Assembly (NCBI GenBank): GCA_003242955.1
Contig: QJPH01000539.1
Span: 1-44,729 of the forward strand
Reading direction: 5' to 3'
Length of the DNA stretch: 44,729 bases
DNA from: Candidatus Methylumidiphilus alinenensis
GTDB taxonomy: Bacteria > Pseudomonadota > Gammaproteobacteria > Methylococcales > Methylococcaceae
In this document: piece by piece, positions 35,237 through 39,533 of the stretch
Layout: every line of letters starts with the position of its first letter
Numbering within the stretch: position 1 is the first letter of the stretch
Program-made: the position numbers and the translations under genes
The notes under the pieces: model-generated
The model's input: the letters and a program-made list of their open reading frames with translations, nothing else
Database searches by the model: none
Told to the model about the DNA's origin: nothing

Positions 35237-36967
35237 TTAGGCAAGCTCCGTGTCGGTGTTGACGCCGGGGGCAAGGCGCATCTCGTGGTGGGCCTTGCCG
35301 GCTTCGATCATGGGATAGACGTTTTCAGTCGGGTCAATATGGAAATCCAAGAACACTGTCTTGTCCTTCATTGCCATGGCTTTCTCCAATACGGGGCGAA
35401 CATCCTCGCGCTTGTCGATGCGAATGCCGACATGACCATAGCTTTCCGCCAATTTGACGAAATCCGGCAGGGTTTCCAAGTAGGTTTGGGAATAGCGGCT
35501 GCCATAGCTGAATTCCTGCCATTGCCTAACCATTCCCATGTACCCGTTGTTGAGGTTGACAATCTTAATGGCGGTTCGATACTGCCGGGCTGTCGCCAAT
35601 TCCTGAATGCACATCTGGATGCTGGCTTCGCCAGTGATGCAAAAGACATCCGCATCAGGAAAGGCGAGTTTCGTGCCGATGGCCGCAGGCATGCCGAAAC
35701 CCATAGTGCCAAGGCCACCGGAATTGATCCAACGGCGCGGTTTGTCAAATTTATAAAACTGTGCCGCAAACATTTGGTGCTGGCCGACATCGGAGGTGAT
35801 GTAAGCGTCCCCATGAGTCATCTCCCACAACTGTTCGACCACATATTGTGGCTTGATGACATCGGCGTTGCGGTCAAATCCCAAGCTGTCAAGTGCGCGC
35901 CAAGCGTCAATTTTTTTCCACCATAGCGTCAAAGCCTCTGCATCAGGCTGGATGTCACTGGCCTTGACGAGTTCGATCATTTCCGCAAGCACGGGTTTTA
36001 ATTCACCGACGATGGGAATGTCCACCCGCACGTTTTTGGAAATGGAAGAAGGGTCGATGTCGATATGGATCACTTTGGCGTAGGGGCAAAACTCGGCTAT
36101 GATTCCAGTGATGCGGTCATCAAAGCGCGACCCGGCTGCGATCAACACATCGCATTCATGCATGGCCATATTGGCTTCGTAGGTGCCGTGCATTCCTAAC
36201 ATGCCGACAAATTGCTTGTCGGTGCCGGGGTAAGCACCCAGCCCCATCAGCGTGTTGGTGATCGGATAACCCAGCAACCGGGTGAGTTCGGTAAGTTCCT
36301 CCGATGCCTCACCTTGGACAATGCCACCTCCCGAGTAGATCATTGGTCGCTTGGCGGCAAGCAACATATCCACTGCTTTCTTAATCTGCCACCGGTGACC
36401 TTTGACGTGGGGATTGTACGAGCGCAGTGTCACTGACTTTGGATACTCGTAAGGAACCTTGACCCTAGGGTCGGTCAGGTTCTTAGGGATATCCACCAGC
36501 ACTGGACCTGGCCTGCCGGTTGTGGCCAGATAAAATGCCTTTTTAATCGTTGATGCCAGCTTAGTGACATCTTTCACTAAGAAGTTATGCTTGACGCAAG
36601 GGCGGGTGATCCCTGAAATATCGGCTTCTTGGAAGGCATCACTGCCAATGACTGCCATGGGGACTTGGCCACAGAGGATGACCATGGGGATTGAATCCAT
36701 GTGCGCGGTGGCAATGCCAGTGACGGCATTAGTCGCGCCGGGCCCCGAGGTCACCAGCACCACCCCCGGCTTGCCGGAAGAACGGGCATAGCCGTCCGCC
36801 GCATGGGTCGCACCTTGTTCGTGCCGCACTAAGATATGCTTGACCTTGTCTTGTTTGAACAAAGCATCATAGATGTGCAACACCGCACCACCCGGATAGC
36901 CGAATATGTATTCAACGCCTTCGTCAATAAGGCATTGGACTAAAATTTCCCCACCGCTAAGCTCCAC
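35237..36967 (-). CDS. ilvB: Acetolactate synthase large (catalytic) subunit
   Basis: A 576-residue ThDP/FAD enzyme making acetolactate or acetohydroxybutyrate for branched-chain amino acids. It shows [19 protein letters not shown], the catalytic Glu in [42 protein letters not shown], and the ThDP-binding stretch [17 protein letters not shown]...[14 protein letters not shown]. The GTG start at 36967 is chosen over ATG 37012 because GAGAGGG lies 8 bp before the GTG and the next residues ([17 protein letters not shown]) match the family N terminus. It forms an operon with ilvH. Confidence 0.96.
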
Positions 36968-37089
36968 TTTATCTACCCTCTCAATGAATTGGGGGCGTTG
37001 CCAAACGCCCACTAGAATATAAGCGATTTAAACCTGTTAAAACTACTCGCAAAAGCCCTATCAGTCAATAGCGGAACAGCAATTCCCAT

Positions 37090-38778
37090 TCATGCAGCCA
37101 TTAGCTTTTTTTGCAAACCCTGTGGTCCCGAGACGAGTGCCTTCCAATCCCGCGACGAGTCACCGAAAACCAGAAAAGGAGGATTGACCAACGACACTTT
37201 GGCATTGTAACGCAAAGGTTCGCCACACAAATCCATCACCACACCGCCGGCCGCTTCAACGATATAATGGGCCGCCGCCGTCTGCCATTCGTAAGTTGTT
37301 GCCAGGCATGGATACAAATCGGCTTCCCCCTCGGCAATTTTGCAGAGTTTAAGGGAACTGCCGATGACTTTAAACTCATGCCTGCCTAGGCGGTCCAGAT
37401 AGGCATCCACACTAGGCACACGCTGTTCGCTGCCTAGCACGACAGGGCATTGCAATGACTGTTTTCTGGCTTGGATTTCCAGCGGGGGGGCTTGGCCTAG
37501 CGACTTGAAAGCCCCGCAACCCTCGGCGGAAAAATAACAAACTTGCAACAAAGGCGCATAAACTACACCTAGCACTGGTTTTTTGCGATGGATCAAGGCA
37601 ACATCGACAGTAAATTCTCCATTTCGTTTGACGAATTCTTCTGTTCCATTCAAGGGGTCGACGAGCCAGTAGGTTTCCCAACCCCCGCGTTCTTCAAAAG
37701 GTTCTAGGGCCGATTCCGCCGACAACACTGGAAACCTGCCTTCCAACGCCTCCAACCCTTCCGAAAGCCAATGATGGGAGACCAAGTCGGCTGCGGTAAG
37801 CGGAGAATGGTCGGCTTTTTCGCCAATGCGGAAGTCGGTGGCATAAATACCGAGAATCTTTCTGCCCGCCTCGACTACTAGGCTAACGACAGCCTTGAGC
37901 AAAGGCGTCGGTGGTGGTTGGGCGGACGGGGGGGAGCCAGTTATGCCTTCCGCATAGAGGGTCCAAGCACGGGTTTTGTCGCCATAGGCGAGAAAAAAAG
38001 GATTGACCAATGAAGGCTTGGCATTATAAAGCAGGGGCTTGCCTTGTAGGTCAGTAAGCGCCCCGCCGGCGGTTTCGACAATACATTGGGCCGCCGCCGT
38101 ATCCCATTCGCTGGAAAGCCCGATGCGGGGATAAAGATCGGCTTTCCCCTCTGCCACTTGACACGTTTTTAACGAACTCCCGACAGGCAAGAAATGATGC
38201 GCACCGAGCCGGTTCAAATAAACCTCCATGCCATGAGTGGTCTGAAAGCGGCTTCCGACGACTTCGGGCGATTGCGGCGCTTGCATGCGTACATTGATTG
38301 AAAAAGGCTCTTCTTCAGCGACTTTTTTGAATGCCCCGCAGCCCTCGGCGGCAAAATAGCAGGTCTCCAGCAGGGGCGCATAGACCACTCCCAACACCGG
38401 CTTGTTTTGATGAATCAGCGCAATATTGACGGTAAATTCGTTGATTTGCCGGGTAAATTCAATAGCTCCACCCAATGGGTCGATCAACCAATAGGTTTCC
38501 CATGAGCCACGGTCCTCAAACGGGGGTGCATCCGATAGTTTCGACAAGACCGGAAATCCGCTGTTCAAGGCTTGCAGTGCTTCCGATAGGAAGTGATGCG
38601 AGACCAGACCGGCGGCAGTGAGCGGCGAACCGTCAGCCATTGGTCCGACACGAAATTCGGAACGGTAGATTTCAAGAATTTTGTCGCCCGCCTTGACCGC
38701 CAAGGCTACAATGGACCCCATAAATCGTGATGGTGCCTTCATTATCGGACTGGAATGATTTCCTTGGCTGCTGCTCAT
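37090..38778 (-). CDS. cysQ: Fused tandem CysQ-like (inositol monophosphatase family) protein with degenerate active sites
   Basis: A 562-residue protein made of two CysQ-like domains (about 17-275 and 290-555). CysQ normally removes the 3'-phosphate of PAP. By comparison with remembered family motifs, the N half has lost the LTxAD aspartate (LTAAG, Gly57) and DPxDGT (DPLGGA, 100-105), but keeps WDTAA (Asp226). The C half keeps LTAAD (Asp331), has DPLNGT (374-379, second Asp to Asn), and has lost the late metal ligand (EWQTAA, Gln499). The first Glu of SEE is missing in both (LSKLS, LSAES). Both halves keep the fold-forming GVVYAPLL, FxxEGCGAFK and VGSSLK segments. It may be a pseudoenzyme or a regulatory/binding protein. 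Divergent from yrfG across 62 bp. Confidence 0.85.
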   Translation of the reverse strand: MSSSQGNHSSPIMKAPSRFMGSIVALAVKAGDKILEIYRSEFRVGPMADGSPLTAAGLVSHHFLSEALQALNSGFPVLSKLSDAPPFEDRGSWETYWLIDPLGGAIEFTRQINEFTVNIALIHQNKPVLGVVYAPLLETCYFAAEGCGAFKKVAEEEPFSINVRMQAPQSPEVVGSRFQTTHGMEVYLNRLGAHHFLPVGSSLKTCQVAEGKADLYPRIGLSSEWDTAAAQCIVETAGGALTDLQGKPLLYNAKPSLVNPFFLAYGDKTRAWTLYAEGITGSPPSAQPPPTPLLKAVVSLVVEAGRKILGIYATDFRIGEKADHSPLTAADLVSHHWLSEGLEALEGRFPVLSAESALEPFEERGGWETYWLVDPLNGTEEFVKRNGEFTVDVALIHRKKPVLGVVYAPLLQVCYFSAEGCGAFKSLGQAPPLEIQARKQSLQCPVVLGSEQRVPSVDAYLDRLGRHEFKVIGSSLKLCKIAEGEADLYPCLATTYEWQTAAAHYIVEAAGGVVMDLCGEPLRYNAKVSLVNPPFLVFGDSSRDWKALVSGPQGLQKKLMAA

Positions 38779-38840: not shown

Positions 38841-39533
38841 ATGATTGACTGGGATAAAATTGATAACGTGTTTCTGGATATGGACGGAACCTTGCTGGAC
38901 CTGAATTTTGATAATCATTTCTGGCAAGAATTTGTTCCGCAACGCTATGCCGAACACAACGGGTTGACGCCGGATGAGGCAAAAATCCTTTTGTCCCCTA
39001 GGTTTAGGGCCATGGAAGGCAAGCTGGAATGGTATTGCCTAGATTATTGGAGCGAACAGCTTGACCTTGATATCCCGGCCATGAAACTGGAAATAGCCGA
39101 GCTTATTTCCGTGCTGCCTCATGTGACGGAGTTTCTCGACGCGGTACGCGCCATTGGCAAACGCTTGGTGCTAGTCACCAACGCCCACAGCAAAAGTTTG
39201 GGGCTGAAAATGGAAAAAACCCGGCTGCACTTCTTTTTCGACGCTATTTTTAGTTCCCACGACTTCGGCATCCCCAAAGAAGACCCAAAATTCTGGAGCG
39301 GGTTGGGCATATTGGAACCATTCACTGCACAACGTACTTTGCTAGTGGACGATAGCCTGCCCGTGTTGCGCTCTGCCCGCACATTTGGCATCCGTCATCT
39401 TATCGCCATTCGCAAGCACGACACAACCCGTCCGGCACGGCATATCACTGAATTCAAGGCAATCGAGGATTTTCGGGAAATCATGCCGTGTGGTGGTTTG
39501 CCACCCATCCCGTATTTATCTGAGTTATCATAG
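38841..39533 (+). CDS. yrfG: HAD-family GMP/IMP nucleotidase YrfG-like
   Basis: A 230-residue HAD phosphatase dephosphorylating purine mononucleotides. Motif I is FLDMDGTLLDLNFDNHFW (Asp nucleophile and Asp+2), motif II LVLVTNAHSK, motif III the lysine in GIPKEDPKFW, motif IV TLLVDDSLPVLRSARTFG. The NFDNHFWQEFVPQRYAEHNGL stretch is typical of YrfG. It is divergent from the double-CysQ gene, an adjacency common in gammaproteobacteria. Followed by an IS66-end-like MITE. Confidence 0.92.
   Translation: MIDWDKIDNVFLDMDGTLLDLNFDNHFWQEFVPQRYAEHNGLTPDEAKILLSPRFRAMEGKLEWYCLDYWSEQLDLDIPAMKLEIAELISVLPHVTEFLDAVRAIGKRLVLVTNAHSKSLGLKMEKTRLHFFFDAIFSSHDFGIPKEDPKFWSGLGILEPFTAQRTLLVDDSLPVLRSARTFGIRHLIAIRKHDTTRPARHITEFKAIEDFREIMPCGGLPPIPYLSELS

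Follow-up and report, generated by a model that had tools for sequence, protein, structure and literature searches.

The window, by which we mean the whole 44,729-nucleotide stretch of DNA analysed, carries on its minus strand a gene whose single open frame encodes a 562-aa protein. It is flanked by a divergently transcribed nucleotidase gene and by a downstream gene that we take to be acetolactate synthase large-subunit-like. The features of the locus are as follows.

37090–38778, minus strand: fused double CysQ gene, a single ORF of 562 aa with two TIGR01331/PF00459 stretches
37987–38715, minus strand: N-half CysQ domain, from the profile stretch and residue tables
37903–37950, minus strand: proline-rich linker EGITGSPPSAQPPPTP joining the halves, from the sequence; model residues 281–289 have pLDDT <50
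37168–37902, minus strand: C-half CysQ domain, from the profile stretch and residue tables
37093–37128, minus strand: C-terminal tail GPQGLQKKLMAA, LQ-x-L-x-K-LLAA-like, in 5/6 fused proteins
38841–39533, plus strand: yrfG-type GMP/IMP nucleotidase, divergent neighbour (NF011564, 230.1 bits; cut-off 189)
35237–37012, minus strand: putative acetolactate synthase large-subunit-like gene, downstream neighbour, an ORF with a homologue on the same side in those genus loci long enough to include it

The presence of two CysQ-like domains in one chain, proposed by a first-pass annotation of this DNA, was confirmed by a genome profile search. Scored singly against TIGR01331 (CysQ), the halves reached 249.5 and 254.4 bits, both above the cut-off of 228.8, and PF00459 matched two stretches within the protein. 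With 562 residues and two domains, the protein departs from the single-domain CysQ format of about 250–270 aa. It also falls below the cut-offs for HisN (TIGR02067, 147.1 bits against 275.15) and for SuhB-type IMPase (NF008027, 73.5 bits against 332). The closest solved relative is CysQ 3b8b, both by sequence and by predicted fold. The AlphaFold model (mean pLDDT 81.1, pTM 0.59) adopts an IMPase fold with 3b8b as its best PDB match (E 1.3e-21), and shows IMPase-type elements in normal order in both halves, joined by the low-confidence linker at residues 281–289. Because the input alignment spanned the N half only, the model of the C half is less sure.

According to an excerpt of PMC4954947, human IMPase holds Mg-I through Glu70, Asp90 and Ile92, Mg-II through Asp90, Asp93 and Asp220, and Mg-III through Glu70. 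In IMPase-like proteins the motif-1 Asp and the motif-2 Glu pair are strictly conserved, and the Asp, Ile, Asp and Thr of motif 3 are key residues of the active site (PMC5516325, in excerpt). We number E70 to D220 as in human IMPase; K64, R194, H196, K221 and R235 follow the G013 reference row and do not number residues of the window protein. By analogy with Hal2p, we assume that R194, H196, K221 and R235 are nucleotide contacts. The corresponding motifs of the window protein are listed below.

38608–38622, minus strand: N half LTAAG, D47 changed to Gly
38536–38544, minus strand: N half SKL in place of SEE, both Glu lost
38464–38481, minus strand: N half DPLGGA
38098–38109, minus strand: N half EWDT, kept
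37786–37800, minus strand: C half LTAAD, kept
37714–37722, minus strand: C half SAE, only the first Glu lost
37642–37659, minus strand: C half DPLNGT, Asp93 changed to Asn
37279–37290, minus strand: C half EWQT, D220 changed to Gln

The N half thus reads G47, K70, L71, D90, G93, A95 and D220. It has lost K64, D47, E70, E71, D93, T95 and the R-N-G of KRNGEF, and it keeps D90, D220, GSR, GSSLK and LYPR. The C half reads D47, A70, E71, D90, N93, T95 and Q220, having lost E70, D93, D220, the R, S and H of SRSH and the R of LYPR while keeping D47, E71, D90, T95, KRNGEF and GSSLK. Among the four Mg-binding acids (E70, D90, D93 and D220), the N half therefore lacks E70 and D93, and the C half lacks E70, D93 and D220. 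D47 and T95 are both gone from the N half and both present in the C half. In the alignment to 3b8b, every change in either half falls on the expected column. The possibility that a ligand has been overlooked at a shifted position, an objection that the first-pass annotation had raised against its own reading, is thereby removed. Its description of the N half (LTAAG, DPLGGA and a retained WD) agrees with this alignment. For the C half it was right about the retained LTAAD and the WQ in place of WD, but it counted DPLNGT as intact although Asp93 is replaced by Asn. The first Glu of SEE is indeed missing from both halves, with the correction that the N half lacks both Glu and the C half the first only.

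A search of relatives for homologous fusions, one of the checks proposed beforehand, found the fusion in six of seven genomes of the genus (G000, the window's own genome, to G006). The whole fused gene lies on a single contig in G000, G001, G002, G004 and G006. In G003 each half runs to the end of its contig, and the two ends have 52 identical bases in common. The genus locus places the fused gene between yrfG and the acetolactate-synthase-like gene. In G005 the yrfG-side and acetolactate-synthase-side cysQ pieces are on separate, non-overlapping contigs, and this genome was therefore counted as having two cysQ pieces rather than a fusion. An assembly artefact or chance fusion was rejected because the architecture repeats on one contig in five genomes and across overlapping contig ends in a sixth, with the same neighbours. 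The LQ-x-L-x-K-LLAA-like tail is present in G000, G001, G002, G003 and G006; the tail of G004 is different and longer. By eye, it was absent from all 23 single CysQs and all five separate copies (described below) among those compared.

Outside the genus, a single cysQ adjoins yrfG in 7/7 loci examined from other genera. A scan of 311 genomes of the order found CysQ at E 1e-40 in 74, and two CysQ matches in one frame occurred, among the matches listed, in members of the genus only. Of 369 genomes sampled from the class, 266 had CysQ, and nine besides the window's genome had at least two matches; for three of these nine, both CysQ sites were among the matches listed and lay at separate places, while the other six may include a fusion. 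Long tblastn spans at L056, L078 and L126, from three other gammaproteobacterial MAGs, were rejected as further fusions: at each of them an IMPase-family gene stands directly before cysQ as a distinct ORF. Family f8, which includes many genera, accounts for 12 of the CysQ-matching genomes of the order, and CysQ looks patchy there.

The loss of ligands is a property of the fused proteins. Across the six genomes, E70 is lost in 12/12 halves, and each half in every genome lacks two or more of the four Mg-binding acids. The N halves have lost D47 (6/6), E71 (6/6) and D90 (5/6) and keep D93 (5/6) and D220 (6/6). The C halves keep D47, E71 and D90 in all six and T95 in three; D93 is Asn in 6/6, D220 is lost in 5/6 and the Arg of LYPR in 6/6. 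Other parts of the site persist: GSxLK is kept in 12/12 halves, D220 and R194 (6/6) and R235 and H196 (5/6) in the N halves, and K64 (6/6) in the C halves. By comparison, D47, E70, E71, D90, D93, D220 and T95 are intact in 42/42 single-domain CysQs (34 from the order and eight from elsewhere). In a scan of named genomes, for which 80 of 572 relatives were taken, the six acids are intact at 80/80 CysQ loci and T95 at 79; one of these loci, L051, is the N-side piece of the corresponding locus in G005, on the identical contig. Given this conservation, the losses in the fused halves are not due to chance. Retention of R194 and H196 is weak evidence, since these residues vary in 11/80 and 8/80 of the database CysQs. 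The N piece of G005 keeps all six acids with T95 changed to Val, and its C piece, visible from about domain residue 137 on, keeps 44/44 back positions.

Because both halves have lost Mg-binding acids, hydrolysis of PAP by the three-metal mechanism is not expected, and we strongly infer from the residue pattern that catalysis has been lost in the fused protein.

In the tree, the N halves form one clade and the C halves another, each with 100/100 support and with the same inner order; the separate intact cysQ copies form a distinct clade, also at 100/100. Support is weak for the G000–G004 fork within the N clade (82/43) and for the placement of G005. Since the two clades share their inner order, their history is most simply explained by a single duplication and fusion that preceded the divergence of the six species.

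The fused gene is under purifying selection. Pairwise Nei-Gojobori dN/dS was computed leaving out G005, G005x and the two halves of G003, which nearly duplicate those of G001 and lie on different contigs; all of these are included in the tree and the residue table. The ratios, which are rough because many dS values exceed 1, were 0.072–0.147 for the N half (10/10 pairs), 0.091–0.211 for the C half (10/10 pairs), 0.067–0.139 for the separate intact copies (9/10 pairs computable), 0.042–0.148 for yrfG (9/10 pairs) and 0.020–0.067 for acetolactate synthase. The low values in both halves indicate that the fused protein is maintained and does not evolve like a pseudogene. By subdomain, mean dN was 0.149 for the N front, 0.118 for the N back, 0.178 for the C front and 0.272 for the C back, compared with 0.145 (front) and 0.091 (back) for the separate copies. 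The C-half back is therefore the fastest part, at about three times the rate of the separate copies' back. Together with the loss of E70 throughout, the low ratios support the view of the protein as a pseudoenzyme, put forward for the window alone, and extend it to the genus.

The first reading had also described the decay of the two halves as complementary. As a statement about metal ligands this fails: E70 is in neither half in 6/6 genomes, and D93 is in neither half in the window genome, so the halves cannot jointly supply one whole metal site, and simple ligand complementation was rejected. What stands is a skew between subdomains. With loss called by majority, 92 near-invariant columns show 13 losses in the N half (10 front, 3 back) and 16 in the C half (5 front, 11 back), giving a Fisher p of 0.025 on columns that are not independent and with a cut chosen after looking. 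A site-by-site avoidance test over the same columns found nothing, with 2 double losses against 2.3 expected.

The second, normal cysQ that had been suggested as a check is present in five sister genomes. G001, G002, G003, G004 and G006 each carry, away from the fused gene, a separate cysQ with all ligands, and the six acids show no loss in these five copies (G001s–G004s and G006s). The copy in G003 starts at the very edge of a contig and so is not full length; those of G001, G002 and G006 are near mgtE. In G002 (L038:7178-9417) and G006 (L044:4023-6346), mgtE and the separate cysQ have a DUF4276 gene and an AAA_21 ATPase gene between them, a pair that looks to us like a mobile or defence module. 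In G004 the separate cysQ occurs in a further copy, the match to which contains two stops (G004:C192:30692-31279, L042).

We found no separate intact cysQ in the G000 or G005 assemblies, and in G000 a contig gap is possible. Only 582 bases separate the start of the G000 mgtE orthologue from the end of a contig, so loss of the separate cysQ and a gap are indistinguishable there. At the other compared flank in G000, marked by a gene that we take to be lipoyl-synthase-like, different genes come after. The G000 assembly contains cysH. It yielded only one DHH-family match, in a 621-aa frame that we consider RecJ-sized, and no NrnA-like protein was seen in it. A third IMPase-family gene (G000:C135:1010-1708), whose 233 matched residues stay below every NCBIfam cut-off and score best against TIGR01331 (110 of 228.8 bits), is a candidate stand-in phosphatase. 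If an intact cysQ is truly absent from G000, something else must clear PAP, perhaps the fused protein or the C135 gene.

We consider it probable that the gene encodes a conserved, genus-level, fused double pseudo-CysQ that acts by non-catalytic binding of a nucleotide or a protein. An ancestral cysQ beside yrfG would have undergone duplication and in-frame fusion early in the history of one genus of Methylococcales. Both halves would then have lost Mg-binding acids, including Glu70 in every fused half. The product would no longer hydrolyse PAP by the three-metal mechanism and would be retained by purifying selection as a folded two-domain protein. Its most likely mode of action would be non-catalytic: it would bind either the phosphate of a nucleotide, by way of the GSxLK loops that persist and the N half's back-site residues, or a partner protein, as its relative SuhB does. 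In most genomes of the genus, PAP is presumably cleared by the product of the second, intact cysQ located elsewhere. Consistent with this explanation, G005, in which no extra cysQ was found, keeps 44/44 back positions in its acetolactate-synthase-side piece. Counting against it is the G000 assembly, with cysH and no intact cysQ found.

That partner-binding branch also forms an explanation by itself, namely a pure scaffold role with no small ligand, comparable to that of SuhB in rRNA transcription complexes. We regard this as the strongest of the alternatives, though clearly less likely than the broader reading. It draws on the SuhB precedent within the same fold (PMC4807359, in excerpt) and on the tail, found in 5/6 fused proteins and in none of the 28 other CysQs compared. 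Against it, the GSxLK loop is kept in 12/12 halves and would have no obvious use if no ligand were bound, although it may be structural.

It is doubtful that one half is still a phosphatase, with residual activity or an activity changed in substrate or metal. The low dN/dS, the C half's D47, E71 and D90 (6/6, with T95 in 3/6) and the lack of another CysQ find in the window's assembly would fit such an enzyme, but it would have to work without E70 in any half and with no more than two of the four Mg-binding acids left in each half in all six genomes.

About equally doubtful is a composite, circularly permuted site, in which the N-half back and the C-half front, neighbours in the chain through the linker, pack into one pocket. 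Such a pocket would keep most of the nucleotide shell, lacking E70 and D93, and would serve as a PAP receptor or as an enzyme with fewer metals. The skew of losses (Fisher p = 0.025) points this way, as do the residues kept by the N halves (D220 and R194 in 6/6, R235 and H196 in 5/6) and by the C halves (K64, D47, E71 and D90 in 6/6) and the rapid change of the C-half back, where mean dN is 0.272 compared with 0.118 in the N-half back. However, E70 is in no half, D93 is lost from the C-half front in 6/6 genomes, and H196 is missing from both halves in the window genome. Additionally, if losses tend to fall together within a subdomain, independent decay of the two halves would give a complementary picture in about half of all cases, and the site-wise avoidance test was negative. 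The AlphaFold model keeps the normal order of elements in both halves, although such a model may not be able to show a swap. A pocket of C-half front and N-half back is thus weakly suggested by the residue pattern, and since E70 and D93 are missing it could bind but hardly hydrolyse. That the dead halves share one circularly permuted PAP pocket and make the protein a receptor or sensor of PAP (or PAPS) seems to us improbable, a shade more so than the pocket itself. If true, the protein would sense a by-product of sulfur assimilation and relay the signal, a nucleotide sensor made from a split and recombined enzyme.

Least likely by far is a decaying pseudogene, left behind once the separate cysQ took over: active-site decay does coincide with a separate intact copy in five genomes, and mean dN in the C-half back (0.272) is about three times that of the same part in the separate copies (0.091), but the full-length frame is open in 5/5 one-contig genomes and dN/dS is 0.07–0.21 over 20 pairs.

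As far as seen, the putative double-domain pseudoenzyme is found in one genus only, with a single cysQ at the same place beside yrfG in 7/7 other loci and with the G005 locus as a possible intermediate, and it would allow the transition from enzyme to non-enzyme to be followed. The case is also a warning for annotation, since profiles score the fused protein as CysQ though its catalytic residues are gone. In the part of the literature covered by our search we met no IMPase-superfamily pseudoenzymes, nor did any appear among the papers listed on tandem or fused CysQ.

Among known systems, the bifunctional NADP phosphatase/NAD kinase (NF010678) joins, by its name, an IMPase-type phosphatase and a second activity in one chain, a fusion architecture that we assume. 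Its partner is a kinase rather than a second CysQ, and the window protein scores 33.3 bits against a cut-off of 493. The CysQ 3'(2'),5'-bisphosphate nucleotidase (TIGR01331) resembles the fused protein in sequence family, predicted fold and yrfG-adjacent locus; unlike it, the fused protein has two domains with metal ligands lost in both. SuhB, an IMPase acting as a Nus factor, has the IMPase fold as well, and SuhB 6ib7 is among the fold matches of the window protein. It belongs to another subfamily (NF008027, 73.5 bits against 332) and, as the excerpted text of PMC4807359 states, has demonstrated IMPase activity. The same excerpt describes a role of SuhB beyond catalysis, in that the growth defect of E. 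coli lacking suhB is not tied to mutants defective in IMPase activity.
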